Shown here: positions 32,139 through 49,478 of the stretch, piece after piece
Numbering within the stretch: position 1 is the first letter of the stretch
How the letters are laid out: every line of letters begins with the position of its first letter
Assembly (NCBI GenBank): GCA_900316985.1
Contig: ONFE01000004.1
Location: forward strand, 1 to 64,000
Length of the DNA: 64,000 bases
From: an uncultured Prevotellaceae bacterium
GTDB lineage: Bacteria > Bacteroidota > Bacteroidia > Bacteroidales > Bacteroidaceae
Reading direction: 5' to 3'
Translations under genes and position numbers: made by a program
The notes under the pieces: generated by a model
Told to the model about the DNA's origin: nothing
Seen by the model: only the letters and a program-made list of their open reading frames with translations
The model's database searches: none

Positions 32139-32155
32139 CGCATGAGGAAAAAATT

Positions 32156-32191
32156 AACGGCTGCAATTCCTTGGGAGGAACTGCAGCCGTT
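32156..32191 (-). terminator. Terminator of the left ompA-like gene
   Basis: A 15-bp stem AACGGCTGCAATTCC with GGAACTGCAGCCGTT. It is nearly the same as the terminator behind the right copy (49438-49478), so it belongs to the duplicated block. Confidence 0.8.
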
Positions 32192-32217
32192 GCTATTTGC
32201 GGAATATTTGTTCTGTA

Positions 32218-33363
32218 TTACTCAGCAATACAGATAGACACGCGGTTCAGGTCGTTCTCCTCGAACGGCTGTACCTTGTCGCCGTAAGAATCGTAGGTGA
32301 TACGGTTCTCGGCAATGCCGTAGTCCTTCTTCAGGGTGTTCACCACCACGTCAGCACGCTGGGCAGCCAGACGGGCGTTGATGCGCTCGTTACCCGTACC
32401 CTTGTCAGCATAGCCGCTTACTACGACCTTAGCCTCGGGATACTTGTTCAGGTACTCAGCAATCTCCTTCACCTTCTGCATCTCAGCATCGGTGATCACG
32501 GTAGAGTTGATGGTGAAGAACACATCGCGACGGATCTGCTCCTTCTTCACAACAACAGGCTCCTGCACATACTTGTAGATGGTGTCATACACTACCACGT
32601 CGCGATACACGTCCTTGGTCTCAGTAGCACGGGTCTTGCCCAGGTTGATGCGCAGACCGGCCAGTGCGTTGAAGTACCAGTCGGGGTTGTCAGCCTTCTT
32701 AGAGTTGTACTTGTCGCCGAGGATGTTGGCGTTACCTTCGAGCAGCAGGCTCACGGCGTCGCTCAGGCGGAAGCCGAGCTGCAGACCGCCACGGCCGAAC
32801 GGCCGAACCTTTGTACCGTCCCAGAGATATTCAAGTTTGTAATCATCAAGTTGCTGAACATTGGCAGCAATGGCATTGGCCTCGTCATTCTTCCAAGCAA
32901 TGTTGGCACCACCACCTACAAACAGCACAACAGAAAGGAAGCGGTTGGGGTTCCAACCACCAATCAGATTGGTCATGTCGAACATCAGGTCAAGGCCTGG
33001 AGCCACGTAGTTCCACTTGTAAGTGTAAGTGAAGGGATGCTGGGCATAACTGTTCCAGCCACCCTTACTCTGCCAGCCATTAGCCTGGATGCGGGCAGCA
33101 AACCAAGGATTGAACTGGTAACCGATGCCGAGCTGTACGTTCGGAGAAATCAGATCCTTGAACTTGGCCTCACCAAGGGTGTACTGAGCACCACCCTGCA
33201 GCGTGATGAATGCATGGCTCTTAAACTTTGTGGTCACGTCCTGGTGATCCAACTCTTGCACAGTGCGCTGGTCAACACGGTCAACCACCTTCTTGGTCTG
33301 TGCAGTGGCGCTCAGACTCGCGAATGCCAGAGCAGCCACTAAATACGTCTTTAAACTTCTCAT
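32218..33363 (-). CDS. OmpA-family protein, left copy
   Basis: The 381-residue protein has a signal peptide (residues 1-21, SATAQ) and a beta barrel to ~residue 225. The C-terminal OmpA domain has FFTINSTVITDAEMQKV, SGYADKGTGNERINARLAAQRA and a conserved end. It should span the outer membrane and bind peptidoglycan. It differs from the 48257 product at roughly 30 positions by eye, mostly in one barrel loop (residues ~104-112). It is last in the leftward operon, 27 nt after the 643-residue gene. Confidence 0.92.
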   Translation of the reverse strand: MRSLKTYLVAALAFASLSATAQTKKVVDRVDQRTVQELDHQDVTTKFKSHAFITLQGGAQYTLGEAKFKDLISPNVQLGIGYQFNPWFAARIQANGWQSKGGWNSYAQHPFTYTYKWNYVAPGLDLMFDMTNLIGGWNPNRFLSVVLFVGGGANIAWKNDEANAIAANVQQLDDYKLEYLWDGTKVRPFGRGGLQLGFRLSDAVSLLLEGNANILGDKYNSKKADNPDWYFNALAGLRINLGKTRATETKDVYRDVVVYDTIYKYVQEPVVVKKEQIRRDVFFTINSTVITDAEMQKVKEIAEYLNKYPEAKVVVSGYADKGTGNERINARLAAQRADVVVNTLKKDYGIAENRITYDSYGDKVQPFEENDLNRVSICIAE

Positions 33364-33390
33364 AATTTTAAATATTTAAAATGAATATAT

Positions 33391-35322
33391 TTATTTAATG
33401 ATAATTTTACGCCCGTTCTTGATGTAAATGCCAGGCCTTGATATTTGATTAATATGCTGTCCGGCCATATTGTAGGTTGCGCCTGTTACTTCGGCGGTCT
33501 GGATGTTACTTATGCCTGTAGTTTTTTCAAACTTGAAGGTGTAGCTTAGGTCATACTTGAAGACCGCAGCATTCAGTTTCAGATACCCTCCAGGAATCAC
33601 TACCTTGTAGGTACCGGTAGTGGTTATCGCCGTTTCGGAATCCACTTGTACATAGATTTCCTTTTTCTGACCGCCTAGATAGAGCTTTCCTTGGCCCACT
33701 TCATTGCCGAGACTATCGTAAATCTTCACAATCTGCGTGCCTGGTGTTTGAGTCAGGTTCGTAAACTCGTAGTCGTTAAACCAGAGTGTGATGCGATCCA
33801 GTCGTCCGTCTTTCTCTATTGCCGTCACCGTGACGTTTGTAGTTTCTTGCTGTCCACCTTCTACGGTGTATTCGAAATACATCTCGTCATTGTGATTGTT
33901 GCCTGCACTGCCCAGAATGAAAGCCTGTTCGGGGATGATGAGCCTGTAGTAACCTGTCTGGGTGACTTCTTCGTCCAGCGTGATGACGCATTGGTTTAAC
34001 CTCGTCCTGTTACTGTCGGTAGAGCCGCGTCCACTCGTCACGGTATTACCGTTTTCATCAACGACTTTTACCACACTCTTGGTGCGGTTGTGGGCAGCAG
34101 CATCCCAGTTATTGAAAGTAATGGTAAACTTATCCAGTTTTTTCACGGTTTTTCCGTCTGTAGGGCTGATTGTCACACCGTAGGTAGCCATTCTGTCGGC
34201 CACGGTGTATGCCACCCACATTTCCTGGTTGTCAAGCATACGTTCGCCCAGTCCGAAGACACCTGCAGGAATGTGCAGATAGTATGTGCCTTGTTGGCGG
34301 ATGGCTGATGTGAGAGTGAACGATGCCACCAGTGGTTCTTCCTGAGCCACGCCCAACTCGGAGGCTTTGATGCTTTCTATCACTGTTTTCTTGTCGCTCT
34401 TGTAGAGCGTGAGTTCTGCTTCGCTGTTATTGATCACCATTCCTTGATCGTAGGTAATGTTGATGCTTTCCAGTTCTGTTATGCTGCCTTGGGCCGGATA
34501 GAGTGCCAGCGAAGGATATCCGATGTTGCAGATATAGGTGAATTCAAAGTGTGAGTCGTTTTCCATACTCGTATTTCCTTTCACCACGTTACCGTTGGCA
34601 TCCACGGCATATACCATGATTTTGATTTCGCCAGTGGCGGTCTTCATAACGTTGGTAGGAATAATCAACTGATATTGTTTGGCATTCTGCTTGTAATCGA
34701 CTATCTGTGTGAACTTCTGCCGACTGCCGTCTGATGCTACTACGCAGGAGCGTTCGGCATCAATTTTCACTGCATCGCTGAAGAACATGAATATGTTGTT
34801 GTTGAGTTCCGTTAACAGTTCACTCCCGTCAGTGGGCGACAGGGTTGACAGTATTACGTCGCTGTAATTATATTCCACGCCGTCGCCTTCGTAAGTTACC
34901 CATGCTGTGCCCGTCACGTCGCTCTTCTCGCTTTGTTCTGAATGACCTTCCACCGTCAGTTGGTAGAGGTGTCCTTTCATGAATTCGATATTGCTGTAGA
35001 ACTTCACCATCCAGCGTCCTTCCTCGTCTTTCTCGGTGGTGTATTCCTTATCCACGATGTAGTCTGTCGTCAGACCGAGTTCCTTCTTTTTTAGGTCAAT
35101 GATACTGATGCTCATGCCTTGGCTCTTTTCGTCGAAAGTTGTGGTGAAGGTCAGCGTGCTTCCTTTCACGAATCCGGCCAGTTTGCTGCCTGCTTCAGGA
35201 TCTATGGTCAGTATGCGGTCTTCTTGGGGCTCGGTGACGGTGCCTTCCTCGTTGCTGGCTTGAAGGTTAGTGGCAGCACAGAGCATCACGGTGAGCAGGA
35301 TGATGGAGTAGAGTTTCTTCAT
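33391..35322 (-). CDS. Secreted multi-domain surface protein
   Basis: The 643-residue product has a signal peptide (MKKLYSIILLTVMLCAATNLQAS). Several ~100-residue beta-sandwich-like repeats follow, each with a phrase such as LSPTDGSELLTEL, LYPAQGSITELESI or ISPTDGKTVKKLDKF. The C-terminal segment GISNIQTAEVTGATYNMAGQ...GIYIKNGRKIIIK resembles the short sorting-type tail common on secreted Prevotella proteins. The repeats look Ig-like; no enzyme motif is seen. It follows the 170-residue lipoprotein by 25 nt in the leftward operon. Adhesion or coat function is inferred from context only. Confidence 0.7.
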   Translation of the reverse strand: MKKLYSIILLTVMLCAATNLQASNEEGTVTEPQEDRILTIDPEAGSKLAGFVKGSTLTFTTTFDEKSQGMSISIIDLKKKELGLTTDYIVDKEYTTEKDEEGRWMVKFYSNIEFMKGHLYQLTVEGHSEQSEKSDVTGTAWVTYEGDGVEYNYSDVILSTLSPTDGSELLTELNNNIFMFFSDAVKIDAERSCVVASDGSRQKFTQIVDYKQNAKQYQLIIPTNVMKTATGEIKIMVYAVDANGNVVKGNTSMENDSHFEFTYICNIGYPSLALYPAQGSITELESINITYDQGMVINNSEAELTLYKSDKKTVIESIKASELGVAQEEPLVASFTLTSAIRQQGTYYLHIPAGVFGLGERMLDNQEMWVAYTVADRMATYGVTISPTDGKTVKKLDKFTITFNNWDAAAHNRTKSVVKVVDENGNTVTSGRGSTDSNRTRLNQCVITLDEEVTQTGYYRLIIPEQAFILGSAGNNHNDEMYFEYTVEGGQQETTNVTVTAIEKDGRLDRITLWFNDYEFTNLTQTPGTQIVKIYDSLGNEVGQGKLYLGGQKKEIYVQVDSETAITTTGTYKVVIPGGYLKLNAAVFKYDLSYTFKFEKTTGISNIQTAEVTGATYNMAGQHINQISRPGIYIKNGRKIIIK

Positions 35323-35347
35323 ATCGCGTTTAGTATATATAGGGGTG

Positions 35348-35860
35348 TCAGTTGTTTCTATAATTAGTCTCTACCGTTCTGGTGCCCACGGTGAGATACC
35401 ATACGGAGTCGATGCGCACGGGATTGAGCGTTGCCTCCACGGTGTTTGGGCGGTTGTCGCCTTGAGGCTTCTCAAACAATGTGATAGTGTAGCGCACCTG
35501 TGTTTCGCTGTCGTTATAGAGTAGCATACTCTTGATGGTGTAGTCGTTTACGGGGAAAGCCATGACTGATTTCCTGATTTCGTTCTTGCGGGCTTCCGAA
35601 AGTGGTTGTGCCTCATGGTTCTTCACCTCGTAGAGCAAGTCGAGGGCACCTTCCACGTTGCCGTTCTTCAGTTCATCGAGATATTGTTTTGCCAACTTCA
35701 ACAGCGTGGTCGAATCAGCTGCCGTCCGGCTCATTTCGAAGTCAGTACGCGGATCAGATGGTACGATGACCTTGTCACTGGCCTTTTCTTTCTTGCCACC
35801 GCACGAAACGGCTCCCATGATGAGGGCGAGCAGCAAAAGTGCTTGAAATGATCTTTTCAT
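35348..35860 (-). CDS. Small lipoprotein (paralogue of the 44643 product)
   Basis: The 170-residue product has a lipoprotein signal, LALIMGAVSC, with lipidation at about Cys20. The body aligns with the 44643 product: DYTIKSMLLYNDSETQVRYT matches CKMKSFILHSDKNNEVAFY, and ATLNPVRIDSVWYLTV matches LTLNPVVKDGKWYLTI. It may be NTF2-like. It is the second gene of the leftward operon, after a hairpin at 35894-35928. Function unknown. Confidence 0.75.
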   Translation of the reverse strand: MKRSFQALLLLALIMGAVSCGGKKEKASDKVIVPSDPRTDFEMSRTAADSTTLLKLAKQYLDELKNGNVEGALDLLYEVKNHEAQPLSEARKNEIRKSVMAFPVNDYTIKSMLLYNDSETQVRYTITLFEKPQGDNRPNTVEATLNPVRIDSVWYLTVGTRTVETNYRNN

Positions 35861-35893
35861 CTTTTTGTTTTGATGTGTCTTTTGTAGTGAAAG

Positions 35894-35928
35894 AGGGGGG
35901 TGCCCTCCATTTGTATGGGCACCCCCCT
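35894..35928 (-). terminator. Intercistronic hairpin after the 1075-residue gene
   Basis: A perfect 12-bp GC-rich stem (AGGGGGGTGCCC with GGGCACCCCCCT) lies 32 nt after the stop at 35961 and before the next gene. It would reduce expression of the downstream genes or stabilise the upstream mRNA. The + operon has a hairpin at the same place (44596-44628). Confidence 0.7.
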
Positions 35929-35960
35929 GAAGGTTATCTTTACATACAGTTTAATTTGGC

Positions 35961-38900
35961 TTATTTGTGTCCGTGAGGAACAATCAGCACCTTGAATGTC
36001 TGAGTCAGTTCGCCGAAGCCATACTTCACCTTGACGGGGATGTAAGCCCAAACGTCAGCCTCGATGTTTGAACCGCCGTTGTTCTTGAATACCAAGTTCG
36101 GGGCTGTGTAGGTCATTGAGAGCACGATGTTACCATTGGTCTCATCTGAAATCTGCTGTGCAGTCATACTCTGGCTGTAAGACAGGCTCTTATCTGGCTT
36201 CACGCTGCCATTGGCACGCTTGAAGGTGTACTTGATGTTTGCTTCATCAACTTCGAAGCCCTGTACCTCATAGTAATCCCACAGAGACTTGGTGTATTTG
36301 CGCTGCTCTTCGGGATAAGTATTGTCGGCCTCTTCTGATACGAGGTATCCGCGGAAGTCGGTCAGTGTCCAAAGACCTGTGCAGTCGAGGATGTCACCTG
36401 ATACCACACCATCCTGCAGTTTGTCATCAATCTCGCCACCGTTGATGCGCAGAGGCTCTACGAGGTAGATCTTATATTTCAATACAGGGATGTAGTTCCA
36501 GTTGTTCAGCGTAGCCCAAACGGTCATGTTGATAGGCTTTGTGTGGGTGCGCTCAGGTGTGACAGTACCGTCAGAACCAGTGATGTCGTTCTGAGACAAT
36601 GGGTTCAGCAGGCCTTGGTTTGCAGGATTGTTGTGATCAGCAAAGAGGCGAGCCTCCTTGTGAGCGGGATTGCCGCACCAAGACACATGATCTTGATCCC
36701 AGTTCAGTTGCAGTGCCTGGTCTGTACCCTTCATCAGTTTATAAGCTACGAAAGTAGCGTAGGGATCTCTGGTTGTGTTGCACCATACACCGCCACTCTG
36801 CCAAGCACCGCCATTGATGTTGACGGAAGATGTGGTATAGTTGGGAGCATAGCCAGTCATAGACTGGGGCAGGTTGAACTGCAGATCCCATGTGCCGCAC
36901 TCTGGAATATCCTTTACGATGAACTGGCGTACACCATTCACCAATTCGTAAGTGAAGGCGTTCATCAGGTTATTGTCATACACGCAGTAAGCCAATGTCT
37001 GTGCAGGAGTGTTGAACTGTACGGGCAGAACGTCATGCTCTTCACCCACCTTGTTGCTAAGCCAGTACTGGTCGTAGTAGCCATTGATTGAAGGCAACTT
37101 AGGCAGTTTGATGGTGAAGTTCCAGTTGAACCACAGGTCAGGATACTCTGTAGGCAGACTTGACTTGAATGTTACCTTGGCGGTGAAGGTCTTCGTGTCG
37201 CTGGCAGAGCTGTTATACACGGTCTCAATGTCACCAGCGTTCAGAATCCACTGGGCAATCAGGGCATCACCATGTACGTTGGTAGTCTGTCCGATAGTGG
37301 GCAGGGCATTGAAGGTTGTGCCTGAGGCAGGAGCGCTTGTCTTCTTTGGTGTACCCCAGTTTGTGGTCCAACCGATAGCCTCCTCAATGTCGGTAGTGTA
37401 TATGGCCTTGAAGTCAGCCTGTGACATACCCTGTGTGCGAACCTTGGCATAAACCTCGTTCACAAACTCTTCCCAGAGGAATTCAGCGGTTACGTCATCA
37501 CAGCCAAGCACGGCCTCAGAGTTCTTGTCAGCCAACTGGACGGCTTCCTTCTCGTCCATAGTCCACTTGATCTTCAGATAGCGCTGGTCAACGAGCTTGT
37601 TATTGTTAACATCCCAGAGTTCTACACGAACGATAGGCTCTTTGCCCACCACGGCTTGGTTGTCGGTAACACCAGCAGGGGTCTTTGAAGAAATTATACC
37701 CTCAGGAGTAACCACGGCAAACTTCTGCTGATCGGTATTGTTGTCGGCAGCATTCTTATAAGTAGTCGTGGGGATGGCGAAGCGGAACTCCAGACCATAA
37801 CTCTTCAATTGTTCCTTGGTAATCTGGGTGTCAGAGATGTTGCGGCTATAGCAGCCAGTCACAATCTCGGTCAGGTCGAAGGTCTCGTTGTAATTGATCT
37901 TCTTGCATACCAGTTCATCCTGGTCCACGCGTGAACCCCAGATAGTTGTTGAATCGCTGTAGTGGTGCATTGCGGCGTTTCTTACATCCCAAGGCAGTGC
38001 TGCAATACGTGGGGTGATCGTCGTCTCGACCAGACGAGAGTTCTCTGAGTAGATGTCGGCTGCCTCAATGCCCTTTTCAGCGTCAGCCTTGCGCGGAGTC
38101 TTTAGGGCAACAATGTAGATATTGTTGTTCGAAAGGTTCAGTGAAGATGTAACGTTCTTCTTTAGTTTTACGGTCAACAGGCCGTTCTCGTAAGACTTGA
38201 TACCATTGAACATTACAGGAGAGGTCTGCAAGACATTGGCAGCTGCACGGGTTTCAGCGATAGCAGCCACGAACTCCATGTTTGCTTCATCGATGCTCTC
38301 ACGCTTTACTGTTGCGGGGTTCAGGCGATAGGTCGCCTCTGTTTCACCGTTGTCAATGCGAACCACCTGAGCACCGCTCTGAGATACCAGTCCGCTCGTT
38401 CCAGGCTTCACTGGAGTATACTGCAATGACAAGAACTCGATAGCCTCAATACCATCCACATAGAGGGCAGGAACCAGTGCGATGCTGTTCAGCTGACGCA
38501 GCACGAGCACGGTCATAGCGTCCAGATTGCTGTTGAAGCCGGCGATGTCCTCTTGCAGTTTCTTTACTTTATCCTGCAGTTCTTTGATGGTGCCGTCGGT
38601 TGCGAAGTTCTTCACCTTCTCTTTCAGTTCGTCAATCTGCTTCTGGTAGTCGGCATCCTTGATGCTCTGATACTGGCCTTTCAGCGTGTTGATCTGTCCT
38701 TGATAGTCGGCATCTTGCAACTTCTTAATTTCTTCGCCATACTTCTCGAAGGCGGCCAACTGAACTTTGAGGTTGGCTTCCAGAGCCTCACGGGCTTTCA
38801 CTTCATCGTCCAAGTCGCCGCGGAGTGTCTTGTAGTCACCTGTCAGCGTCGCAATGTCTTTCAGGGCACCGTTAACGTCAGTGCGGAGTTTGCTGATGGC

Positions 38901-39188
38901 ATCGTTAGCTGTTCCCAACTGGGTCTCCAACGTTGCCACCTTACCGGCAAGGTCAGTCACCGTCTTGGCATCAGCCTTCGCTGCGATGGCCGTCTGCAAT
39001 TCTGACTTAGCAGAATTCAACTGGTTGGTCAAATCTGTCTGCAGGGCAGTCAGTTTCGGCGTCAGCGCATCAATCTGTGTCTGTAAGTTATTGATGTCGT
39101 CATCATAGTCCTTACAAGACGTCACTGTGCTCGTAACAGCAAATCCAAATGCTGCTAAAAGCAATGCACTTAAAATTTTCTTTTTCAT
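35961..39188 (-). CDS. Large coiled-coil surface lipoprotein, left alternative
   Basis: The 1075-residue product starts MKKKILSALLLAAF and has a lipobox TSC (Cys25) followed by KDYDDD. An acidic stretch after the lipid cysteine matches the surface-export signal of Bacteroidota lipoproteins. Residues ~28-235 form a long coiled coil (repeated LQTQIDAL, LKVQLAAFEKYG heptads). The rest is beta-rich with no recognised enzyme motif. It shares the N terminus, plan and C-terminal style of the 40977 product but the middle is diverged. It heads the leftward operon and has no canonical promoter upstream in this orientation. Confidence 0.75.
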   Translation of the reverse strand: MKKKILSALLLAAFGFAVTSTVTSCKDYDDDINNLQTQIDALTPKLTALQTDLTNQLNSAKSELQTAIAAKADAKTVTDLAGKVATLETQLGTANDAISKLRTDVNGALKDIATLTGDYKTLRGDLDDEVKAREALEANLKVQLAAFEKYGEEIKKLQDADYQGQINTLKGQYQSIKDADYQKQIDELKEKVKNFATDGTIKELQDKVKKLQEDIAGFNSNLDAMTVLVLRQLNSIALVPALYVDGIEAIEFLSLQYTPVKPGTSGLVSQSGAQVVRIDNGETEATYRLNPATVKRESIDEANMEFVAAIAETRAAANVLQTSPVMFNGIKSYENGLLTVKLKKNVTSSLNLSNNNIYIVALKTPRKADAEKGIEAADIYSENSRLVETTITPRIAALPWDVRNAAMHHYSDSTTIWGSRVDQDELVCKKINYNETFDLTEIVTGCYSRNISDTQITKEQLKSYGLEFRFAIPTTTYKNAADNNTDQQKFAVVTPEGIISSKTPAGVTDNQAVVGKEPIVRVELWDVNNNKLVDQRYLKIKWTMDEKEAVQLADKNSEAVLGCDDVTAEFLWEEFVNEVYAKVRTQGMSQADFKAIYTTDIEEAIGWTTNWGTPKKTSAPASGTTFNALPTIGQTTNVHGDALIAQWILNAGDIETVYNSSASDTKTFTAKVTFKSSLPTEYPDLWFNWNFTIKLPKLPSINGYYDQYWLSNKVGEEHDVLPVQFNTPAQTLAYCVYDNNLMNAFTYELVNGVRQFIVKDIPECGTWDLQFNLPQSMTGYAPNYTTSSVNINGGAWQSGGVWCNTTRDPYATFVAYKLMKGTDQALQLNWDQDHVSWCGNPAHKEARLFADHNNPANQGLLNPLSQNDITGSDGTVTPERTHTKPINMTVWATLNNWNYIPVLKYKIYLVEPLRINGGEIDDKLQDGVVSGDILDCTGLWTLTDFRGYLVSEEADNTYPEEQRKYTKSLWDYYEVQGFEVDEANIKYTFKRANGSVKPDKSLSYSQSMTAQQISDETNGNIVLSMTYTAPNLVFKNNGGSNIEADVWAYIPVKVKYGFGELTQTFKVLIVPHGHK

Positions 39189-39240
39189 TAGACTAAAAAT
39201 TAAATTAAACTATAAAAATATATTGTACTTAAATTCAATC

Positions 39241-39267
39241 ACAATTATGCGCTCTCCCGTGGGGAGA
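39241..39267 (-). repeat. Left inverted repeat of the putative invertible segment
   Basis: Read on the - strand this is TCTCCCCACGGGAGA, GC, then GCATAATTGT. It matches 40900-40926 on the + strand at 25 of 27 positions. The TCTCCC-CAC-GGGAGA core is itself a palindrome, as expected for a tyrosine-recombinase site. Similarity stops on the inner side and continues loosely on the outer side to the start codon. Confidence 0.85.
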
Positions 39268-39343
39268 TTGCACTTGAAATAAAGTCGTATTTAAGATGTT
39301 TTTGTAAGGCTTCGTTTCTAAATAAGTGCAATTCGTCTATCTT

Positions 39344-40357
39344 TCACTTTTTGTGCTTTGACTCCAGAAAGTTGATAATTGAAGCGTTGGTTTCATCTAT
39401 GATGTCTGCGTCTATCTGTGCTAGATATATTTGTGTGGTGCGTTCCGAGGTGTGCCCCATGCTGTCGCTGATTATCTGTAGCGGTACATTCATCCGTTTG
39501 GCAGTGGAAGCCCATGAATGGCGGGCAACGTACATCGTGAGCGGATCGGGCAGTTTTAGCTTCTTGCCGATGGCCTTCAGCCGGTTGTTAAGCGTGTGTT
39601 GGCTGCGCTTGTATTGCTGATACTCATTGCCTGAGCTTTTTCTGACCAATGGCAGCAGGTAACCATCGCATTCTTTGGCATATCGGTTCACAATTTCCTC
39701 CAGCTGCGGCTCCCATCGGATACGTATCAGTTGGCCTGTCTTTTTGCGTTGATAGGTCAGAACGCCGTTTCGGATGTCGCTCCTGCGCAGGTAGCACATA
39801 TCTACAAACGACATCCCCCTCGTGAAAAGACTGAAACGGAACATGTCCAGGGCGAAAGTCGTGTGGCGGTTGCTGCTCTGAATATTGAGCAGCATTTTCA
39901 AGGCATCGGCTGGCAAGGCTCGCTTCTTCGTACGTTCCATGCCGGTAAAAACTTGTTCAAACAGAAGCTGGCTCTCGCACATTCCCTGCAGTGCTGCCAG
40001 CCGATACACGGCACGCAGTCTTCTCATATAGAACGAACAGGTATTGCGCGACAATCCCTTTTCTTGCATCCACCGTTCGTAGCCCTTGATGATTTCTGCG
40101 TTGAGTTCCCCTGGAGTTATCGCTTGAGGATAATACTTCATGAAACTGCTCAGCGTGCTTTCGTATGTCTGCGCCGTGCGCACACGGCCTTCACGCCTTA
40201 GTATGGCAGCCTGATTCTTGAGCATTTCCTGCAACGTGATGCCCTTGCGGGCTTCATGGCCGCCTCCGTTGGTCACCATTCCTCCTAACCGGATCACAAT
40301 GTCACTCGGTTGGCATTCCAGCCAAGCCTTTGAGATTTCAATTTTGATAGAATTCAT
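39344..40357 (-). CDS. Tyrosine recombinase (putative local DNA invertase)
   Basis: The 337-residue protein has an N-terminal SAM-like DNA-binding domain (residues ~45-135) and a catalytic domain with Arg180 (FTRGMSF), Lys206 (KKTGQ), Arg279 (YVARHSW), His302 (MGHTSERT) and nucleophile Tyr311 (TQIYL). The usual His of HxxR is Tyr276, a change often seen in Bacteroidota members. The gene lies inside a segment bounded by a 27-bp inverted repeat and between two paralogous operons. No mobilisation, excisionase or phage genes are near, so an invertase role fits better than integration. It points toward the leftward operon here. Confidence 0.9.
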   Translation of the reverse strand: MNSIKIEISKAWLECQPSDIVIRLGGMVTNGGGHEARKGITLQEMLKNQAAILRREGRVRTAQTYESTLSSFMKYYPQAITPGELNAEIIKGYERWMQEKGLSRNTCSFYMRRLRAVYRLAALQGMCESQLLFEQVFTGMERTKKRALPADALKMLLNIQSSNRHTTFALDMFRFSLFTRGMSFVDMCYLRRSDIRNGVLTYQRKKTGQLIRIRWEPQLEEIVNRYAKECDGYLLPLVRKSSGNEYQQYKRSQHTLNNRLKAIGKKLKLPDPLTMYVARHSWASTAKRMNVPLQIISDSMGHTSERTTQIYLAQIDADIIDETNASIINFLESKHKK

Positions 40358-40514
40358 AAATCATAGTTTTGAAGTTAAACAGAAGTATAATTGTCGATAT
40401 TGAGTAGAATATGCTGTTGTTTAGACTCACACTGGGGGCGAATGTGCAATGCCGGAATCCTTTGAGAATAGGCATTTCAGCTCCCTTTGTAAGCTTTTGT
40501 GCGAATAATCTGGG

Positions 40515-40522
40515 CAAAATTA
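40515..40522 (-). promoter_or_regulatory. Possible -7 element for the recombinase gene
   Basis: TAATTTTG on the - strand, ~158 nt before the recombinase ATG. No good -33 TTTG at the right distance. The leader between them has no clear structure. Confidence 0.35.
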
Positions 40523-40572
40523 CCCTTATTTATCAAGAATAAGCGACTCTGCGCGAAAAAGTTTGATAAAAA

Positions 40573-40604
40573 TTTGGAAAATAAATGGGAAAACACTAAT
40601 TTTG
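40573..40604 (+). promoter_or_regulatory. Second promoter inside the invertible segment
   Basis: TTTG (40573-40576), 20-bp spacer, TAATTTTG (40597-40604). It reads toward the + operon but is ~370 nt from it and precedes an 18-codon ORF. Confidence 0.6.
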
Positions 40605-40629
40605 CATTGATTTTAAAAAAACTACGTAT

Positions 40630-40686
40630 ATGATTATGAGAAGAATTTCATTAACCCTTAAACCCAGTGATGCCTATGAGAGATGA
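40630..40686 (+). CDS. Short ORF of 18 codons, leader or remnant
   Basis: The ORF ATG ATT ATG AGA AGA... encodes MIMRRISLTLKPSDAYER and ends in TGA. It lies 25 nt after a canonical promoter inside the invertible segment. The Lys/Arg-rich start resembles a truncated export signal, but there is no hydrophobic core. It could be a leader peptide, the remnant of a gene cut by past rearrangement, or not translated. No ribosome-binding evidence is decisive. The rest of the gap 40358-40976 holds two promoters, a CG palindrome and a 10-bp inverted repeat, but no other gene. Confidence 0.25.
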   Translation: MIMRRISLTLKPSDAYER

Positions 40687-40698
40687 CCCATTTATGCT

Positions 40699-40712
40699 TA
40701 CGCGCGCGCGTA
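40699..40712. repeat. Alternating CG palindrome
   Basis: TACGCGCGCGCGTA, a perfect 14-bp palindrome of alternating purine-pyrimidine, followed by TATATATTA. It is very unusual in this AT-rich stretch and prone to Z-form or cruciform structure. Confidence 0.7.
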
Positions 40713-40718
40713 TATATT

Positions 40719-40789
40719 AATAAGGTGTATATAGCGCAAGTGCAAATCTCTGGTATGCTCTGGTTATAAAACGCCCGCAACACCTTATT
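40719..40789. repeat. 10-bp inverted repeat in the invertible segment
   Basis: AATAAGGTGT (40719-40728) and ACACCTTATT (40780-40789) are exact complements 51 nt apart. It may be a terminator-like structure for the upstream transcript or a protein-binding site. Confidence 0.5.
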
Positions 40790-40851
40790 TTAAACGAGAA
40801 GTGGCTTAAATGTTAAAATTTGTGCTTTTTGTGAAAAAATATTGGAGATTG

Positions 40852-40883
40852 TTTGCGCAATATAATAATTAAGCGTATATTTG
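40852..40883 (+). promoter_or_regulatory. Putative invertible promoter, driving the + operon
   Basis: TTTG (40852-40855), 20-bp spacer, TATATTTG (40876-40883). It lies just inside the right inverted repeat and 94 nt from the ATG at 40977. If the segment flipped, it would lie at about 39315-39284 on the - strand, 96 nt from the ATG at 39188. Confidence 0.75.
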
Positions 40884-40899
40884 CACAAAATTACTGTAT

Positions 40900-40926
40900 T
40901 CTCCCCACGGGAGATTGCATAATTGT
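40900..40926 (+). repeat. Right inverted repeat of the putative invertible segment
   Basis: TCTCCCCACGGGAGA, TT, then GCATAATTGT; partner of 39241-39267. It lies in the 5' leader of the + operon, so its palindromic core would also form an mRNA hairpin. Confidence 0.85.
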
Positions 40927-40976
40927 GAGAGAATTTAAGAATATATATATATTAATTTAATTTAATTTTTAGTCTA

Positions 40977-43900
40977 ATGAAAAAGAAAATTTTAACTTCT
41001 TTGCTCATGGGTGCATTCCTTTTTGCGTCCACGAGTATGATTACGTCTTGTAAGGACTATGATGATGACATCAATGACCTGAAGGCGTTAGTTAATGCTG
41101 ACAAGGCTGCCCTCGAGCAGGCTAAGTCTGATCTGCAAGGTCAGATTACTTCGATGCAAGGCCAACTTTCTACCCTGGATGGTAAGTTGACTACGCTTGA
41201 GAACGAGGCCAAGAATCATGCAACCAAGACAGAGTTGAAGGACGCTATCGACGACGTGAAGGGTCAGATTTCTGGTCTTGAGGCTCGTCTGGGAACTGCC
41301 GAGACAACTCTGAAGAACCTTAACACTCTTATCGGCGGTGAGCTCACCGGTGATTTGAAAGGCATGTCCTACAAAGATGCTGTGATGAAGGTTTATGGTG
41401 ATCTGGAGTCTGTTAAGACCAATTTGGGTAGTGCTCTTACTGACATCGATGGTTTGAAGAAAGCCCTCAATGATCCTAAGACTGGTTGGAAGGCTGTTGA
41501 TGCCGACTTGCAGCAGCAGATCGATGCCATCAATAAGTATCTCGGCAAGTATGGTTCTACTGATCCTACGGTTACTAAGCAGCTGGAAGATCTCCGTGCT
41601 CAGCTTAAGCAGATTTCTGAGAATGGTTACGACGATACCGCTATTAAGAATGACATCGACGGCTTGAAGAAGCAGATGAAGGACCTGAATACTGCCATCA
41701 ACGAAATCAAGGCTAGCATCAACGTGCTGAACGTACTCGTACAGCAGCGTCTGCGCAGCCTCGTGTTCATTCCCGATGCATATTATTGGGGAATTGAGGC
41801 TACCAGCTTCAACTATCTCGATGCTTTCCAGTACACTCTGGCTGCTACCGATTACGAAACGAGGGAAGTTCGTGGTTATGAGTATGGTAACAAGAAGTAT
41901 GATGACCGTGTTTCTGACGACGCTCTGATGCAGGCAGGTTCACGCCTCGACCACAGCGCTGCTAATAAGGAAGGTGGCCGTTATGACAGCATTCAGTACA
42001 CCAGCGTGATGGACCTCTGGGCTAACTATCACCTGAACCCCTCTGATGTTATCATTGACGATATCACTGACGTACAGGTTATCGACGCTGATAAGGACTA
42101 CGTGCTGACTCGTGCTTCTGAGGCTAAGATCACTACCAAGAAGGATAAGGACGGCAAGAGCATCTATAAGATTAAGGACGGTGTGATGAGCGTTCAGCTC
42201 GACGTCAAGAATCCTGACAAGATCAAGAGCGTGCTCAAGGGTCTCCAAGGCTTGATTTATGGCGAGCAGATCAGCCCGAACATGCCTGCTGGTACTACTG
42301 CTGCTACTCAGGAGAAGCCAATGGTTACCATCTTCGCTACTCAGGCTTATCTGCAGGGTGAAGGTGCTAAGGAAGATACCATCATCACTTCTGACTATGC
42401 TACGCTGTATGCTGATATCTACAGCAACATTCGTCTGTCTCACAAATATTCTACCACCGCTAACCCAGTTCCTTTCACTGGTGTTCAGAATGCACACTGT
42501 GGTTATTGCGCTCTCTATGCTAATGACAAGATTGCTGATAACGATAGCCTCCACCTGATGGCTACCGTACACGAGGCTACTGTCTTCGCTCCTCAGGATA
42601 CCTGTAACTGGAATGAGACCCTCGACCTCCGCAAGCTCGTGGAGACTCACTGGGACAATATCTCTGGCATGCACGAAGTGGTTCCTGCTGACAAGATGGA
42701 AGAATATGGTCTGACCTACAAGTTCGAACTCACTGGTTTCTATAAGGGTAGCAATACTACTTCTGAGTCTGCTCACGCTGCTATCAACCCCGAAGATGGT
42801 TACACCTTCCGTCCTCAGATGGTTGAGCAGGGTACTGGTAAGCAGCAGGCTTATGGTGCTGAGCAAGGTATGCAGACCGTTGGTCGTACTCCTGTTGTTC
42901 GCGTATCTCTTGTTGACAAGTATGGTAAGATTCTGGACTACGGTTACATCCGTATCCTGATTACCCGTAAGGGCCCAGATTATTCATATCTTGAAGTGAA
43001 GTATGATGGTAAGGGTCAGTCTTATCTTGATGAGTGCGAATTCGAGGCTGAAGGCTATCAGGTTTACAAGACCACTTGGTATCAGACCGAGTATGACCTG
43101 TACAAGCTCGTTGGTATGGCTCGTGAGGACTTCGAGAATGTCTATGAGGAAGAGCCTGTTAAGGCCGGTGATGATTACCAGCAGTACATCAAGAAGGATG
43201 GTAAGTGGGTAGAGTGCGATGAGGATGAAATCCTTGGTACACTGACCAATACTCCTGACCTTACTGATCCTGAGACTCACACTCAGTCTAGTACTTTGAT
43301 CTACGAGCTCACTTCTGAGGATATCGATGCTCTCTATGCTCAGTGGACTAACAAGAAGGCTGAGAAGACCTTTACCGTGGAGCGCGCTTACAAGTATGCA
43401 CCTAACACTACTGGTTATAGCGACATCTATGTAGTATTCACAACGAAGGTGACCTTCAAGCCAATGCCACAGTACAGCGCTACTATCGACTGGTCTAACC
43501 ACAAGACTGAGAAGTACTGGTATGTGAAGAACTCTGCTGAAAAGGCTGACGTTACAAAGGATGACGTAACATACGAACTCCACACCAACGTTCCTGCTGT
43601 TGAGGATGAGCTCCGCGCTGATGCTGACTCTCTGACCAACCTGTTCTCTACCGAGTTCCGTGGTAACGACGTAATCATCGCTTCTATGGTGAAGAGCACT
43701 CAGGAAGGCTTCGATGCTTCTGACTGGATCTATACACTCGTATTTGATAAGTCTAACAATGGTAAGCAGTTCAAGGGTAACGACGGTAAGACCTATGTCC
43801 TGAGTGTATCTGCTGACGGTAAGAAGTTGCTGGCTAAGACTGGTACACGTCTGCCTGAGGTTATCGCTGAGCTCGTTCTGACTGATGAGTCTTATGCTGG

Positions 43901-44570
43901 CACGGCTGCCGAGGCTGACTATACCATGGTTGTTTACAAGCACGGTACTGCTGCTGAAGCTCTGCTGAACTACGCTTCTCACAGTGAGTTCAACGACAAG
44001 AACGATGCCGTTCTGAACAACACGCTGACCGCTATCATCGGTGTTCTCGCTAAGAACGAGTGCCAGGAACTGACCCTGAGCAACAAGACCTTCAACGTAC
44101 GCTTCCTCCGTCCGATCGACGTTCTGAACAAGGATGCTGAAATTGAGGATGCTTCTACTGACGGCATGCAGATCATCAACCTGCTTGAGCTGGTTGACTT
44201 CAAGGATTGGCGTGATGCTTGGAAGGGTGCTAATCCTGGTGGATCTTACTACACCTATTATGGAATCACGGGCGTTTACGTAGGTGATGCTGAGGTTAAG
44301 CTCGCTGACGGTGAGGCTCTGAGCTCTATCGATGCTGTGAAGGCTAACCTTGACCATAAGGGTATGGAGCAGCTCAACAACATCACCAACCAGCTCGACT
44401 TCATCTACAGCTCTGACAACGGTGGTCAGTTGATCTACAAGAACGTAAGTTCTACTGTACAGACCTTCGAGCTTGAGATTCCTATCCGTGTTGAGTACAT
44501 CTGGGGTAATCTGTACACTGTTGCTACTGTAACGGTGAACAGAACTCACCACAATGCCAAGGCTAACTAA
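40977..44570 (+). CDS. Large coiled-coil surface lipoprotein, right alternative
   Basis: The 1197-residue product starts MKKKILTSLLMGAF with lipobox TSC (Cys25) and acidic CKDYDDD, as in the 39188 product. Residues ~30-265 are predicted coiled coil (LKALVNADKAALEQAKSDL; LRAQLKQISENG). A long beta-rich region follows and a C-terminal beta segment ends NRTHHNAKAN. Codon choice is very restricted (GCT, AAG, GAC, CTC), like the OmpA genes, suggesting high expression. No enzyme motif is seen. It is first in the + operon, downstream of the 40852 promoter, and probably forms a major surface coat or fibre. Confidence 0.75.
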   Translation: MKKKILTSLLMGAFLFASTSMITSCKDYDDDINDLKALVNADKAALEQAKSDLQGQITSMQGQLSTLDGKLTTLENEAKNHATKTELKDAIDDVKGQISGLEARLGTAETTLKNLNTLIGGELTGDLKGMSYKDAVMKVYGDLESVKTNLGSALTDIDGLKKALNDPKTGWKAVDADLQQQIDAINKYLGKYGSTDPTVTKQLEDLRAQLKQISENGYDDTAIKNDIDGLKKQMKDLNTAINEIKASINVLNVLVQQRLRSLVFIPDAYYWGIEATSFNYLDAFQYTLAATDYETREVRGYEYGNKKYDDRVSDDALMQAGSRLDHSAANKEGGRYDSIQYTSVMDLWANYHLNPSDVIIDDITDVQVIDADKDYVLTRASEAKITTKKDKDGKSIYKIKDGVMSVQLDVKNPDKIKSVLKGLQGLIYGEQISPNMPAGTTAATQEKPMVTIFATQAYLQGEGAKEDTIITSDYATLYADIYSNIRLSHKYSTTANPVPFTGVQNAHCGYCALYANDKIADNDSLHLMATVHEATVFAPQDTCNWNETLDLRKLVETHWDNISGMHEVVPADKMEEYGLTYKFELTGFYKGSNTTSESAHAAINPEDGYTFRPQMVEQGTGKQQAYGAEQGMQTVGRTPVVRVSLVDKYGKILDYGYIRILITRKGPDYSYLEVKYDGKGQSYLDECEFEAEGYQVYKTTWYQTEYDLYKLVGMAREDFENVYEEEPVKAGDDYQQYIKKDGKWVECDEDEILGTLTNTPDLTDPETHTQSSTLIYELTSEDIDALYAQWTNKKAEKTFTVERAYKYAPNTTGYSDIYVVFTTKVTFKPMPQYSATIDWSNHKTEKYWYVKNSAEKADVTKDDVTYELHTNVPAVEDELRADADSLTNLFSTEFRGNDVIIASMVKSTQEGFDASDWIYTLVFDKSNNGKQFKGNDGKTYVLSVSADGKKLLAKTGTRLPEVIAELVLTDESYAGTAAEADYTMVVYKHGTAAEALLNYASHSEFNDKNDAVLNNTLTAIIGVLAKNECQELTLSNKTFNVRFLRPIDVLNKDAEIEDASTDGMQIINLLELVDFKDWRDAWKGANPGGSYYTYYGITGVYVGDAEVKLADGEALSSIDAVKANLDHKGMEQLNNITNQLDFIYSSDNGGQLIYKNVSSTVQTFELEIPIRVEYIWGNLYTVATVTVNRTHHNAKAN

Positions 44571-44595
44571 TTCGAACAGAATTTATAATCTATAC

Positions 44596-44628
44596 AAAAG
44601 GGGAGGGGTGAGAACTCCTCCCCTTTTT
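44596..44628 (+). terminator. Intercistronic hairpin after the 1197-residue gene
   Basis: AAAAGGGGAGG pairs with CCTCCCCTTTT and is followed by TTCT. It would lower expression of the five genes behind it relative to the surface protein. It mirrors the hairpin at 35894-35928. Confidence 0.75.
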
Positions 44629-44642
44629 CTCAACTAACGAAA

Positions 44643-45155
44643 ATGTACAATAAGATTAACGTCATTATAGCCATCCTTGCTCTCTGCCTGGTGGCCTCGT
44701 GTAAGAATAAGAAGGTGGATGATAGCCAGCGTCAAAGCGAGTTTATCAAGCCTGCTTCCATGAACTACTCCCATGAGGATACCATGCGCATCAACCAGTT
44801 GATGGAAGACTATGTCGCAGGATTTGCTGCCAAGGACTATGACCGAACGGCTAATATGCTCTATAAAGTGGTCAATGATACTGTCTATCCTTTTTCTGAG
44901 AAAGAGAAGGAAAACTATAAGAAGGCTATGGCACAGCTACCGAATTACGGTTGCAAAATGAAGAGTTTCATCCTTCATAGTGACAAGAACAACGAAGTGG
45001 CCTTCTATGTGCAGATGGTTCCAAACGGTGATCTCGAAAAGGAAATCGGCGTTACCACGCTGACTTTGAATCCTGTTGTCAAGGATGGCAAATGGTATCT
45101 CACCATCCGCGATAAGCATGCCGAGGGCGTGAAAGATGTTTATAAGGATGAATAA
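44643..45155 (+). CDS. Small lipoprotein (paralogue of the 35348 product)
   Basis: The 170-residue product begins MYNKINVIIAILALCLVASC, a lipoprotein signal with Cys20. It has the same length and a similar C-terminal half (MKSFILHSDKNNEVAFYVQM...LTLNPVVKDGKWYLTI) as the second gene of the leftward operon. It may be an NTF2-like accessory lipoprotein. It follows the large lipoprotein by 72 nt with a hairpin between. Confidence 0.75.
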   Translation: MYNKINVIIAILALCLVASCKNKKVDDSQRQSEFIKPASMNYSHEDTMRINQLMEDYVAGFAAKDYDRTANMLYKVVNDTVYPFSEKEKENYKKAMAQLPNYGCKMKSFILHSDKNNEVAFYVQMVPNGDLEKEIGVTTLTLNPVVKDGKWYLTIRDKHAEGVKDVYKDE

Positions 45156-45156
45156 C

Positions 45157-45549
45157 ATGATAAGAGCATGGTTCCTGGTCGTGATGGCGTCTGCCTGTCT
45201 GCTTTGCGGATGTAAGCAAGATCCAGCCATGCTGAAGGTGAGTACCAACGAAGTTGACTTCGGAACAATCCGCCTGCAGGATGGAATGGTCCAGCATGTT
45301 GACATCGATTGTGAGAATACTGGCGACAAGACGCTGCGATTCAAACCGGTATTTACCGACTGTTCCTGTACAACGGTGACCCTTCCTGCTGATACACTGA
45401 AAGGTGGCGAGAAGATGACGGTCAGCATAGACGTGAACTATTTTGGGTTTAGGCCAGGAGACCATCATTCTACTGTCAAGCTCTTGACCAACTCCAAGGG
45501 AGGTACCGAAGAGATTGTACTGAAAAGTAAAATTGTACCAAATCAATAA
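45157..45549 (+). CDS. DUF1573-domain lipoprotein
   Basis: The 130-residue product has a lipoprotein signal (MASACLLCGC). It has a DUF1573 domain with the family pattern EVDFGTIRLQDG...F.NTGDKTL...DCSCTTVTLP...V.FGFRPGDHHSTVKL. The domain is a small immunoglobulin-like fold of unknown role, frequent in Bacteroidota. ATG at 45157, one base after the upstream stop, has a plausible AAGGA upstream. In-frame ATGs at 45136 and 45148 would overlap the previous gene. No counterpart is in the leftward operon. Confidence 0.8.
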   Translation: MIRAWFLVVMASACLLCGCKQDPAMLKVSTNEVDFGTIRLQDGMVQHVDIDCENTGDKTLRFKPVFTDCSCTTVTLPADTLKGGEKMTVSIDVNYFGFRPGDHHSTVKLLTNSKGGTEEIVLKSKIVPNQ

Positions 45550-45558
45550 ATATTCTAC

Positions 45559-46047
45559 ATGAATTCTCGAACGAGTCTTTTATGTTTATTACTGTTGAGC
45601 ATTCTGCTGGTTGCCTCGCCTGTTCAGGCTGACAATCAGGAGAGTGTTTTGATGATTGTACAGAAGGGTGGTAAGATAACCTACGTGGATCTCAATGAGA
45701 ATCCCGAGATAACCTTCTCTTCTGATTATATTTCTATTTCTACCAAAGAACTACAGTTCAGTTACGACGATGTGGAGGAGTTTACCTTCCAGATGGAGTT
45801 GCCTACGGCTATCTCCCAGGTGGAGTCACCTTCTTCGCTCGTATTTTCCTTTACGGATGCCAATACCATCCGTGTTGCGGGATTGGCTTCTGCCGCCGGC
45901 GTCTTTGTGAGTTCGCTGGACGGGAAGCATTTTTCTGTTCCTATGGAACAAACCGGAAACGAAATTTCTCTTCATCTGGCATCATTGCCACATGGAGCCT
46001 ATATAGTAGTAACACCTAAACAGTCATATAAGTTTATTAAGAAATGA
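45559..46047 (+). CDS. Secreted protein with sorting-type C terminus
   Basis: The 162-residue product has a signal peptide (ending PVQA). Its C-terminal half, IRVAGLASAAGVFVSSLDGK...LPHGAYIVVTPKQSYKFIKK, resembles the beta-sandwich tail of Bacteroidota type A sorting domains. The N-terminal half contains GGKITYVDLNENPEITFSSDYISI, similar to a segment at the start of the next protein (ITIHLTDGST...KITFGT). It overlaps the next gene by 4 bp. Function unknown. Confidence 0.65.
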   Translation: MNSRTSLLCLLLLSILLVASPVQADNQESVLMIVQKGGKITYVDLNENPEITFSSDYISISTKELQFSYDDVEEFTFQMELPTAISQVESPSSLVFSFTDANTIRVAGLASAAGVFVSSLDGKHFSVPMEQTGNEISLHLASLPHGAYIVVTPKQSYKFIKK

Positions 46048-48212
46048 AGAAACTCTATCTCATACTTATGTTTGTAGGCGTAGTGCTCTCTGGCTATGCC
46101 CAGCGCAAAGCACCCGCTGCAGACATCCGTACGATTACTATACATCTTACCGATGGTTCTACTATAGAACGCCCGGTGTGGGAAGTGGAGAAGATAACCT
46201 TCGGAACTTCCGAGAACACGCTCGAATCTACTGCACCCGACGCCGCCGTTGACCTTGGTCTCAGTGTGCAGTGGGCTCCTTTCAACTTAGGTGCTGCTAA
46301 TGCTTCAGAACCCGGTTTCCTGGTTGGATGGGGTGATGTTACAGGACGTAACCATTCTACCGATTTGAAATATTATCCCACGCTGACTCCCGACGGACAT
46401 ATAGTCAACACCAGTTACGACTTGGCCAAGGTGATGTGGGAGGACAAATGGCGTATGCCTACCGATGGGGAAATCAATGAACTGATTACTCAGTGTGACT
46501 GGGAGTGGACGGAACAGGATGGCGTGAATGGATATCTGGTGAAGTCACGTACGAACGAAAACAGTATCTTCCTTCCTGTAACGGGTGTTCGTACAGGAGA
46601 TGTAACTGGTGAGGCCGATATGGGCTATTATTGGTCAGGAATGCTTTCTGAGAATAAGACCAATGCCCAGATGTTAGGACTGACCGAAAATACCTTTACT
46701 ATGACCGAGATGGAGCGTTATCTCGGTATGGCCATTCGTCCTGTCTATGGCGACTATAAGCAGAAAGTAGAGGTAGCCATTAATGAGAATGGGGTTACGA
46801 AAGTGGCAGAAACAGTTTCCGTACCACTGATATTCACAGGAACGCTGAGTTATGTTTCTGATTATGGTGTGGCTTATGCTACTTCGGAGAGTACGCTGAA
46901 CGTACAAGGCAATAGCCGTGTGAACAAGTCTGGTGTCCCCAATGAGACGACCACAATCACCGTGGGTGGGCTGGAGTCTAATACTACCTATTATTTCAAG
47001 GCTTACGCCGTGACGGAGGGTAACTATGTGGAAAGTAACGTGATTTCTGTCACTACCGACGCCAAGTTCCCCATTCCTGATGCTGTAGATTTGGGCTTGA
47101 GCGTGAAATGGGCTAAATGGAATATGGGCGCCAGTTCCGAATACGAGGTTGGTGGCTATTATGGTTGGGGCGATCCTACCGGAGACATGATGTCGTGGAC
47201 CAGTTCTGACTATGCCAATGGCTATACGAAAACCACTATCTGTGGTGATGCAAATTATGATATAGCCACCGCCAACTGGGGTAAAGGATGGCGTCTGCCG
47301 AAAAAAGAGGAGGTGGAAGAACTGATGGAGAAGTCCACGATTACAGCAACAACGCAAAATGGCGTGGCTGGTTATATGCTCACTTGTAACGGACAGTCTA
47401 TCTTCCTTCCCAAAGGCGGATACGAGTATAGTAACAAGTTCTATTATGACAACTACTCTATGTATTGGACTGGCGAGACAGATAGCCAATTGCACCCTTA
47501 CGAACTGGCTATCTATAGCAAGACGCAATATGCTATTGTTGCCAATAACAACAAGGCAACCCACATGCTGATCCGTCCGGTATATGATGGTGGCGGTTCG
47601 TCTGGTGGCGGCACCTCTTCCAATGCATACGATAAGTATGCGGTGGATCTGGGTTTGAGTTCTTTGTGGTCATCGGTGAATTTGGGTGCTACGAAGAATA
47701 CGGCTGCTGGCAAGTTCTATGCATGGGGTGAGACCAAAGCCAATACCAGTTTCAAGAAAGAAGAATATGATTATTACGATGCCAGTTCAGATGCCTTCGT
47801 GAGCATAGGCAATGATATCAGTAATACGGAATATGATGCCGTAAAGGCAGCATGGGGTGGTAAATGGCACATGCCTACCTATTTTGATTTCCAGGAACTC
47901 AACGAAAGATGTACCTGGGAGAAAACCACGGTAAGCGGCGTGAATTGTTACAAAGTGACTGGCCCTTCAGGAAAGTTTATCTATTTGCCGATGACAGGTT
48001 ATTATTCATCAACGAGCACCGAACCGGCATATTCAACAACCAAAGCCCGCTATTGGGCTGGGACGCTTTATACGCTTCCTACGGCTGATCCCACACCTAA
48101 TGCGTATGCCTATGCTTATAATCTAGATATCAACACGAATCCTCAGGATTCCCAGCCCAATAAATACTATAGGTACTATGGTGCTGTGATTCGCCCGGTA
48201 AGAACGAAATAA
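46044..48212 (+). CDS. Secreted protein with three FISUMP-like domains
   Basis: The 722-residue product has a signal peptide (ending GYAQ). Three copies follow (residues ~68-236, ~345-513, ~532-720) of a ~170-residue domain with the pattern AVDLGLS-W-N-GA...GWGD...W...RMPT...IFLP.TG...YW.G...IRPV. This is the Fibrobacter-type major paralogous/DUF1566-like lectin-like fold. A fibronectin III-like segment (TTITVGGLESNTTYYFKAYAVTEG) lies between copies one and two. A Gly/Ser linker precedes the third. It is fifth in the + operon, 44 nt before the OmpA gene; a binding role is inferred. Confidence 0.72.
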   Translation: MKKLYLILMFVGVVLSGYAQRKAPAADIRTITIHLTDGSTIERPVWEVEKITFGTSENTLESTAPDAAVDLGLSVQWAPFNLGAANASEPGFLVGWGDVTGRNHSTDLKYYPTLTPDGHIVNTSYDLAKVMWEDKWRMPTDGEINELITQCDWEWTEQDGVNGYLVKSRTNENSIFLPVTGVRTGDVTGEADMGYYWSGMLSENKTNAQMLGLTENTFTMTEMERYLGMAIRPVYGDYKQKVEVAINENGVTKVAETVSVPLIFTGTLSYVSDYGVAYATSESTLNVQGNSRVNKSGVPNETTTITVGGLESNTTYYFKAYAVTEGNYVESNVISVTTDAKFPIPDAVDLGLSVKWAKWNMGASSEYEVGGYYGWGDPTGDMMSWTSSDYANGYTKTTICGDANYDIATANWGKGWRLPKKEEVEELMEKSTITATTQNGVAGYMLTCNGQSIFLPKGGYEYSNKFYYDNYSMYWTGETDSQLHPYELAIYSKTQYAIVANNNKATHMLIRPVYDGGGSSGGGTSSNAYDKYAVDLGLSSLWSSVNLGATKNTAAGKFYAWGETKANTSFKKEEYDYYDASSDAFVSIGNDISNTEYDAVKAAWGGKWHMPTYFDFQELNERCTWEKTTVSGVNCYKVTGPSGKFIYLPMTGYYSSTSTEPAYSTTKARYWAGTLYTLPTADPTPNAYAYAYNLDINTNPQDSQPNKYYRYYGAVIRPVRTK

Positions 48213-48256
48213 TGTTGAACCAAAATATATTATATTCATTTTAAATATTTAAAATT

Positions 48257-49414: not shown

Positions 49415-49437
49415 TCAGTAAACATTACGCAAATAGC

Positions 49438-49478
49438 AACGGCTGCAGTTCCTCATGGAATTGCAGCCGTTATTCTTT
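49438..49478 (+). terminator. Terminator of the right ompA-like gene
   Basis: AACGGCTGCAGTTCC pairs with GGAATTGCAGCCGTT, followed by ATTCTTTT. Near-copy of the structure at 32156-32191. Confidence 0.85.

Follow-up and report, generated by a model that had tools for sequence, protein, structure and literature searches.

The window, that is, the whole stretch of 64,000 nucleotides analysed here, likely contains a self-contained two-way (ON/ON) S-layer switch, set so that the right (+) operon is on in the present orientation. The initial annotation had already suggested such a switch with the right operon on, and this suggestion is now supported by the recurrence of the same layout in four other genomes, by the counterparts of the promoter and of the sites found there, by the segment that is inverted between two of these genomes (G299 and G101) and by homology with an S-layer locus. 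In the mechanism that we propose, the 1,632-nt segment would be an invertible element whose own tyrosine recombinase moves it by acting on two inverted 15-bp sites in which TCTC arms surround an identical 7-bp spacer. Outward promoters on the 5' side of the recombinase gene would now transcribe the right operon (lipoprotein, accessory proteins and OmpA anchor), and after inversion they would stand equally distant from the left operon, which encodes a different coat lipoprotein and a near-identical OmpA anchor; one coat would be on in either orientation. We infer that inversion occurs in the source strain through this recombinase, with transcription of the operon that is faced, and that the S-layer-like coat is relevant to phage or host contact.

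Table 1. Features of the putative coat switch (positions are those of the window)
Feature	Positions	Strand	Remarks
Left OmpA-family protein, 381 aa	32218..33363	-	
Left operon 643-aa protein	33391..35322	-	CopC and Big_5 matches above Pfam cut-offs
Left operon 170-aa protein	35348..35860	-	27% identity to right 170-aa protein
Left coat lipoprotein, 1075 aa, predicted silent in present orientation	35961..39188	-	TSCKDYDDDI lipoprotein-type start; homologs
Left leader (5' UTR and first ~33 codons)	39087..39252	-	right-side mirror at 81%
Left recombination site core, TCTC-CCGTGGG-GAGA	39253..39267	+	
Predicted invertible segment, 1,632 nt	39268..40899		bounded by sites; like-layout segment inverted between G299 and G101
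Tyrosine recombinase, 337 aa, within segment	39344..40357	-	Pfam PF13102 and PF00589; alignment
Inner outward promoter match, missed by the initial annotation	40573..40604	+	sequence match
Outer promoter, TTTG-N20-TAnnTTTG, outward through right site	40852..40883	+	counterpart in all four same-layout relatives
Right recombination site core, same 7-bp spacer, inverted orientation	40900..40914	-	
Right leader, mirror of left leader	40915..41078	+	
Right coat lipoprotein, 1197 aa, predicted ON in present orientation	40977..44570	+	
Right operon 170-aa protein	44643..45155	+	
Right operon 137-aa protein	45136..45549	+	
Right operon 162-aa protein	45559..46047	+	
Right operon 722-aa protein	46044..48212	+	
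Right OmpA-family protein, 385 aa	48257..49414	+	92% identity to left OmpA

The locus is organised as a 17-kb mirror (32148-49479), with the OmpA genes outermost and the leaders and sites innermost. Identity between the two OmpA genes is 89% at the DNA level and 92% at the protein level; the two lipoproteins, whose frames are open throughout (1075 and 1197 aa), share 25-32% identity when aligned in two parts, and, beyond these and the 170-aa proteins, the remaining genes of the left and right operons have no mutual match. Since OmpA and the leaders are alike and the genes between them are different, it appears that the anchor and leader have been conserved and that the coat bodies have diverged. 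When the right lipoprotein was compared with solved structures, two matches were obtained at E <=0.01, both in its N-terminal coiled-coil-like part. One may also observe that the OmpA genes form a 1.26-kb inverted repeat of their own (32148-33396 and 48223-49479; 1,262 columns, 89%), which could itself allow gene conversion, or inversion of the 17-kb locus by homologous recombination.

A 27-bp inverted repeat had been described around the segment. The 25/27 match between 39241-39267 and the reverse complement of 40900-40926 holds, but the true repeat is longer than 27 bp: around the sites it extends over 45 nt at 87% (39228-39272 / 40895-40939), and it is embedded in a longer mirrored leader (39087-39267 / 40900-41078) which is 81% identical over 182 columns. 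This inverted repeat is far above chance: within the 5-kb region, the highest-scoring inverted match of 40 nt is perfect (40/40) and lies inside the leader, the site arm reaches 36/40, and no inverted 40-nt match in 100 Markov sequences was above 25/40. The palindromic core that was said to bound the segment, TCTC-CCGTGGG-GAGA, is indeed present in the window as two inverted 15-bp copies, both exact; with up to two mismatches allowed, the mean in shuffled sequences is 0.15, and at least two copies were obtained in 2/100 shuffles. The extended site pattern (<=1 mismatch) occurs at only two places in the whole 3.7-Mb genome and, among the 398 genomes of the genus, has matches in G415 and G299 besides the source genome, the match in G415 being located on a 4-kb contig whose single long frame (918 aa) encodes no coat protein and no recombinase. 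The spacers of the two window sites are identical (7/7) in inverted orientation, each site is foldable on one strand (z -2.8 and -2.9), and the outer arms of both are imperfect.

The distance between the cores, 1,632 nt, agrees with the size of about 1.63 kb given previously, and the gene inside them does code for a tyrosine recombinase, with Phage_int_SAM_5 and Phage_integrase domains (Pfam). This protein is full length, retains the columns that are invariant across five aligned recombinases, and matched two Xer-type recombinases in a search of solved structures. Its gene is oriented toward the left operon, with 156 nt between its end and the left ATG, so that weak read-through is possible and the predicted "off" state of this operon may be incomplete. 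Of the promoter claims, that of a single canonical promoter in the segment needs correction: the one at 40852-40883 (+) is present and points right, but there is a second one, at 40573-40604, which likewise points right. At least two such matches in the segment have a probability of 0.001 (1000 Markov sequences). The motif, TTTG-N19-21-TAnnTTTG, is what we take to be the Bacteroidetes-type promoter, and the window matches are matches of sequence. Together with the relatives of the locus, this promoter type suggests a source in the Bacteroidales, perhaps one resembling Prevotella. As had been reported, no left-pointing copy is present in the interval from the left ATG to the right one, and the promoter distances are well balanced, with 94 nt at present (40883 to 40977) and 96 nt after a flip (from the flipped promoter end, 39284, to the left ATG, 39188). 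By eye, a 10-bp hairpin (arms at about 40719-40728 and 40780-40789) and a short reading frame can be seen between the two promoters (40604-40789), possibly a leader or an attenuator.

The same layout, with a recombinase gene between two divergent lipoprotein genes, is found in four genomes of the same genus (G145, G132, G299 and G101), the left lipoprotein being fragmentary in G101 and the right one devoid of a lipobox motif in G132. In all five loci, window included, an outward TTTG-N20-TAnnTTTG promoter is located on the 5' side of the recombinase gene; it faces right in the window and in G101, and left in G145, G132 and G299. The inner outward match is present in G299 and G101 as well, and has no equivalent in G145 and G132. 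In each case (5/5) the recombinase gene itself is directed at the operon opposite to the one faced by the promoter, and its transcript may therefore extend into the silent operon. Promoter-to-ATG distances, mirrored about the spacer centres, are similar in the present and flipped states (94/96 in the window, 144/144 in G145, 92/117 in G299). The window, G299, G101 and G145 have two sites per locus with an identical spacer, which is CCGTGGG here, CGCCGGG in both G299 and G101, and CTGCACG in the third lineage; spacers identical within a locus and different between lineages are as strand exchange would predict. G132 has one site only. At this locus (L061 5979-7693), where the other site is absent, the leaders are identical (92/92) and the right gene has no lipobox motif, so that it looks like a locked or decaying switch.

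The comparison between G101 and G299 deserves particular attention. Their right operons and downstream genes are collinear (blocks of 87.7%, 86.1%, 89.0%, 90.3% and 92.3% identity), and the block with the recombinase and promoter is inverted (G101 6945-8420 versus G299 6893-5446, 84.0%). The simplest reading of this arrangement is an inversion between the two sites, that is, a natural flip. Their left operons have no DNA match past the leader, which indicates that more than one change separates the two loci. Both orientations of such a segment are seen between these two related genomes, and the assembly of the source genome contains one orientation only. The right lipoproteins of G299, G101 and G145 group together (36-88% identity), and the promoter faces away from this shared type in G299 and G145 and toward it in G101; the right lipoprotein of the window is nearest to those of G154 and G075 and to the left lipoprotein of G145.

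In G299, a 399-aa protein with no Pfam match over the cut-off is encoded between the recombinase and the far site (L063 7789-8988) and is presumed to be extra cargo within the inverting segment. A similar frame exists in G330 (L093), where only the interior of the element is present, on a 3-kb contig from which the orientation is not readable. Repeats were also seen by eye just inside the site on the 3' side of the recombinase, GGTAA/TTACC-like in G101 (L060 near 6640-6750) and GTTACA/TGTAAT-like in G145 (L055 near 14090-14290); no unit of either kind was seen by eye at the window locus.

The recombinase has relatives at five loci with 37-43% identity in the collection of genome contigs (genome_contigs) and none in that of viral contigs (viral_contigs), and the phage records gave no near match. 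Its best match among the 398 genomes of the genus, for matches listed at E <=1e-80, is 48% identical, and in 399 genomes of the family nothing above 444 bits was obtained besides the source genome. A profile search of the genus gave 95 matches in 72/398 genomes, of which 86, including the window, were taken with wide context (nine being left out); a motif filter retained 70 of these 86 as having an intact recombinase. Pairs of TCTC-N7-GAGA sites with matching inverted spacers accompany 26 of these 70 loci, window included, and none was found at the other 44, the search range being 900 nt, except at L063, where it was 3,000 nt on one side (longer element). The control with 30 random arms, drawn regardless of base composition, had a mean of 0.37 and a maximum of 2. 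We conclude from this difference that the sites of the window belong to the type found with this recombinase family. The pairs enclose the recombinase at 4/70 loci (the window, G145, G299 and G101) and lie beside it, 170-230 bp apart, at 22/70, the layout with the recombinase outside being therefore the commoner one in the genus. These 22 loci (between L098 and L189) make up a genus-wide family of small invertons beside recombinases of mostly about 400 aa.

Other arrangements exist around related recombinases. Different inverted repeats, without the coat motif, flank the recombinase at L107, L161, L168 and L170; at L107 (5867-10650, G197), it is located between two convergent OmpA-like genes, which together form an inverted repeat several hundred bases long (455/489). 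In the relatives from B. fragilis (L016) and B. faecalis (L019), perfect repeats lie beside the recombinase, 530 and 622 nt apart, and in those from Alistipes and Rikenellaceae a pair with repeats of 93% and 96% lies beside it, 254 and 406 nt apart. The idea that the two-coat layout corresponds to one recombinase clade was considered and is unsupported, as it takes four changes on a 35-row tree and 234/500 shuffles were as low; the gap in scores of the profile search is thus probably largely due to the profile having been built from five of the six sequences concerned. The recombinases with this layout occupy four separate places in the tree, several forks being weakly supported, and this scattering suggests either an old layout with fast-changing or replaced recombinases, or a layout that has arisen more than once.

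Several points weigh against a switch: one orientation was assembled, the nearest recombinase is at 48%, the left operons of G299 and G101 have no DNA match past the leader, G132 has one site and looks locked, the left lipoprotein of G101 is fragmentary, 44/70 loci are pairless, four other loci have different repeats and no coat motif, the recombinases of this layout form no single clade, and the "off" state may be leaky. We regard as unlikely a fossil, in which sites and layout persist and flipping has been lost in the source strain: the imperfect outer arms at each window site, the single site of G132 and the fragmentary left lipoprotein of G101 would fit this idea, but the recombinase of the window is full length with its invariant columns retained, the spacer is identical (7/7) between the sites, and the two lipoprotein frames run uninterrupted for 1075 and 1197 aa. 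An ordinary ON/OFF inverton serving the right operon only, with the left operon depending on a non-canonical promoter of its own or on read-through from the recombinase, is in our opinion rather improbable. The recombinase gene does run in the direction of the left operon, stopping 156 nt short of its ATG, the four others likewise read toward the operon not faced by the promoter, and the layout with the recombinase outside is commoner (22/70 versus 4/70); however, the left operon has the leader and the site of the right one and an equal promoter distance after a flip, no canonical left-pointing promoter lies between the two ATGs, and in G145, G132 and G299 it is the left operon that the promoter faces.

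Two further hypotheses bear on the agent of inversion and on the nature of the segment. Inversion of the RecA type, by homologous recombination between the mirrored leaders or the OmpA genes and without the tyrosine recombinase (compare sap in Campylobacter fetus), could make use of the long mirrored repeats (182 columns at 81% for the leader, 1,262 columns at 89% for OmpA). We nevertheless hold it for very unlikely, given that the cores match the site family of related recombinases and that the end of the repeat coincides with the inner edge of the palindromic core here, falls inside the core in G299, and lies no more than 5-8 nt away from it in G101 and G145. It is also true that many tyrosine recombinases are integrases, and the segment might then be a small integrated mobile element whose ends fell by chance between duplicated operons. 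This would be most surprising, as integrated elements have direct and not inverted attachment sites, the phage records contain no near match, and divergent recombinases occupy the same place in four other genomes.

The nature of the coat was approached through a locus of B. faecalis, reached via L019 and the OmpA profile, which has in order an integrase, GTTAC-N7-GTAAC repeats 285 nt apart, a lipoprotein and an OmpA protein. Homology with this locus is seen for OmpA (E 1.3e-105) and for the lipoprotein (E 6.2e-79 among 47 frames tested), whose protein start is similar. The OmpA profile has four matches in B. faecalis at 1e-20, only one of which shows the integrase-repeats-lipoprotein-OmpA layout, and none in the B. 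fragilis record at the same threshold. The 19-nt repeat of B. faecalis agrees in every position with the consensus that PMC12118408 gives for the S-layer loci of B. thetaiotaomicron, among them BT1927, which is near an integrase. A repeat printed for B. thetaiotaomicron is absent from six genomes of one other genus. Homologs of the S-layer lipoprotein and of OmpA lie in one operon of the window, as in a BT1927-type locus, and this homology to the S-layer-like locus of B. faecalis, through which (rather than through the BT1927 sequence) the comparison was made, suggests that the window lipoproteins are probably S-layer-type coats.

If the two-way switch is real, some lineages would never be bare-surfaced and would trade one coat for another, with different phage and immune dynamics. 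In the phase variation of Bacteroides S-layers, as described in PMC12548429 and PMC12118408, single loci go ON or OFF, affecting phage and complement resistance. The segment described here is compact and self-contained, and the natural flip apparent between G299 and G101 offers ready comparison alleles. More speculatively, and with less than even confidence, one could imagine a coat selector without a coatless state, in which the recombinase rides inside and the coat bodies diverge freely, with leaders and anchors kept alike; the recombinase transcript may enter the silent operon, coupling switching to the choice of coat, and the layout may have arisen repeatedly, or be old with replacement of recombinases.

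How does this locus relate to known switches? PMC12548429 describes a Bacteroides surface lipoprotein whose promoter lies between inverted repeats. BT1927-type S-layer loci combine lipoprotein and OmpA genes with an integrase and an invertible promoter, and the window lipoprotein and OmpA have homologs in the B. faecalis locus of this layout. In these loci, however, the recombinase lies outside a small inverton (repeats 285 bp apart in B. faecalis) which serves one operon, whereas in the window it is inside a 1.6-kb segment with two operons and TCTC/GAGA site arms. In B. fragilis, a tyrosine recombinase (Tsr19/BF2766 and similar) inverts promoters of surface genes (PMC4747536); BF2766 acts in this way on a local promoter and on a distant one, and each of these is scored as ON or OFF. 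The B. fragilis and B. faecalis relatives of our recombinase differ from it in having repeats beside the gene and not around it. Hin of Salmonella is a serine recombinase that needs an enhancer and Fis, and the second antigen is silenced via a co-transcribed repressor; as in the window, the recombinase gene is inside the inverting segment, with a promoter at its edge. The window differs from this system by its tyrosine recombinase domains and by the predicted sharing of a promoter in place of a repressor. The sap locus of C. fetus, which depends on RecA and homologous recombination, has one promoter on an invertible segment that separates S-layer gene homologs alike at their 5' ends, an arrangement which the window would share, but its segment carries S-layer export genes and, unlike ours, no tyrosine recombinase. 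None of the titles and abstracts of the open-licence papers that we searched describes an S-layer switch with two operons and an internal recombinase. The full-length recombinase, the paired sites and the outward promoter sequence match found here are those of a Bacteroidales tyrosine-recombinase promoter inverton, and the best reading of the sequence data is that the two-operon layout with the recombinase inside would be a variant of the known S-layer phase variation of Bacteroides.
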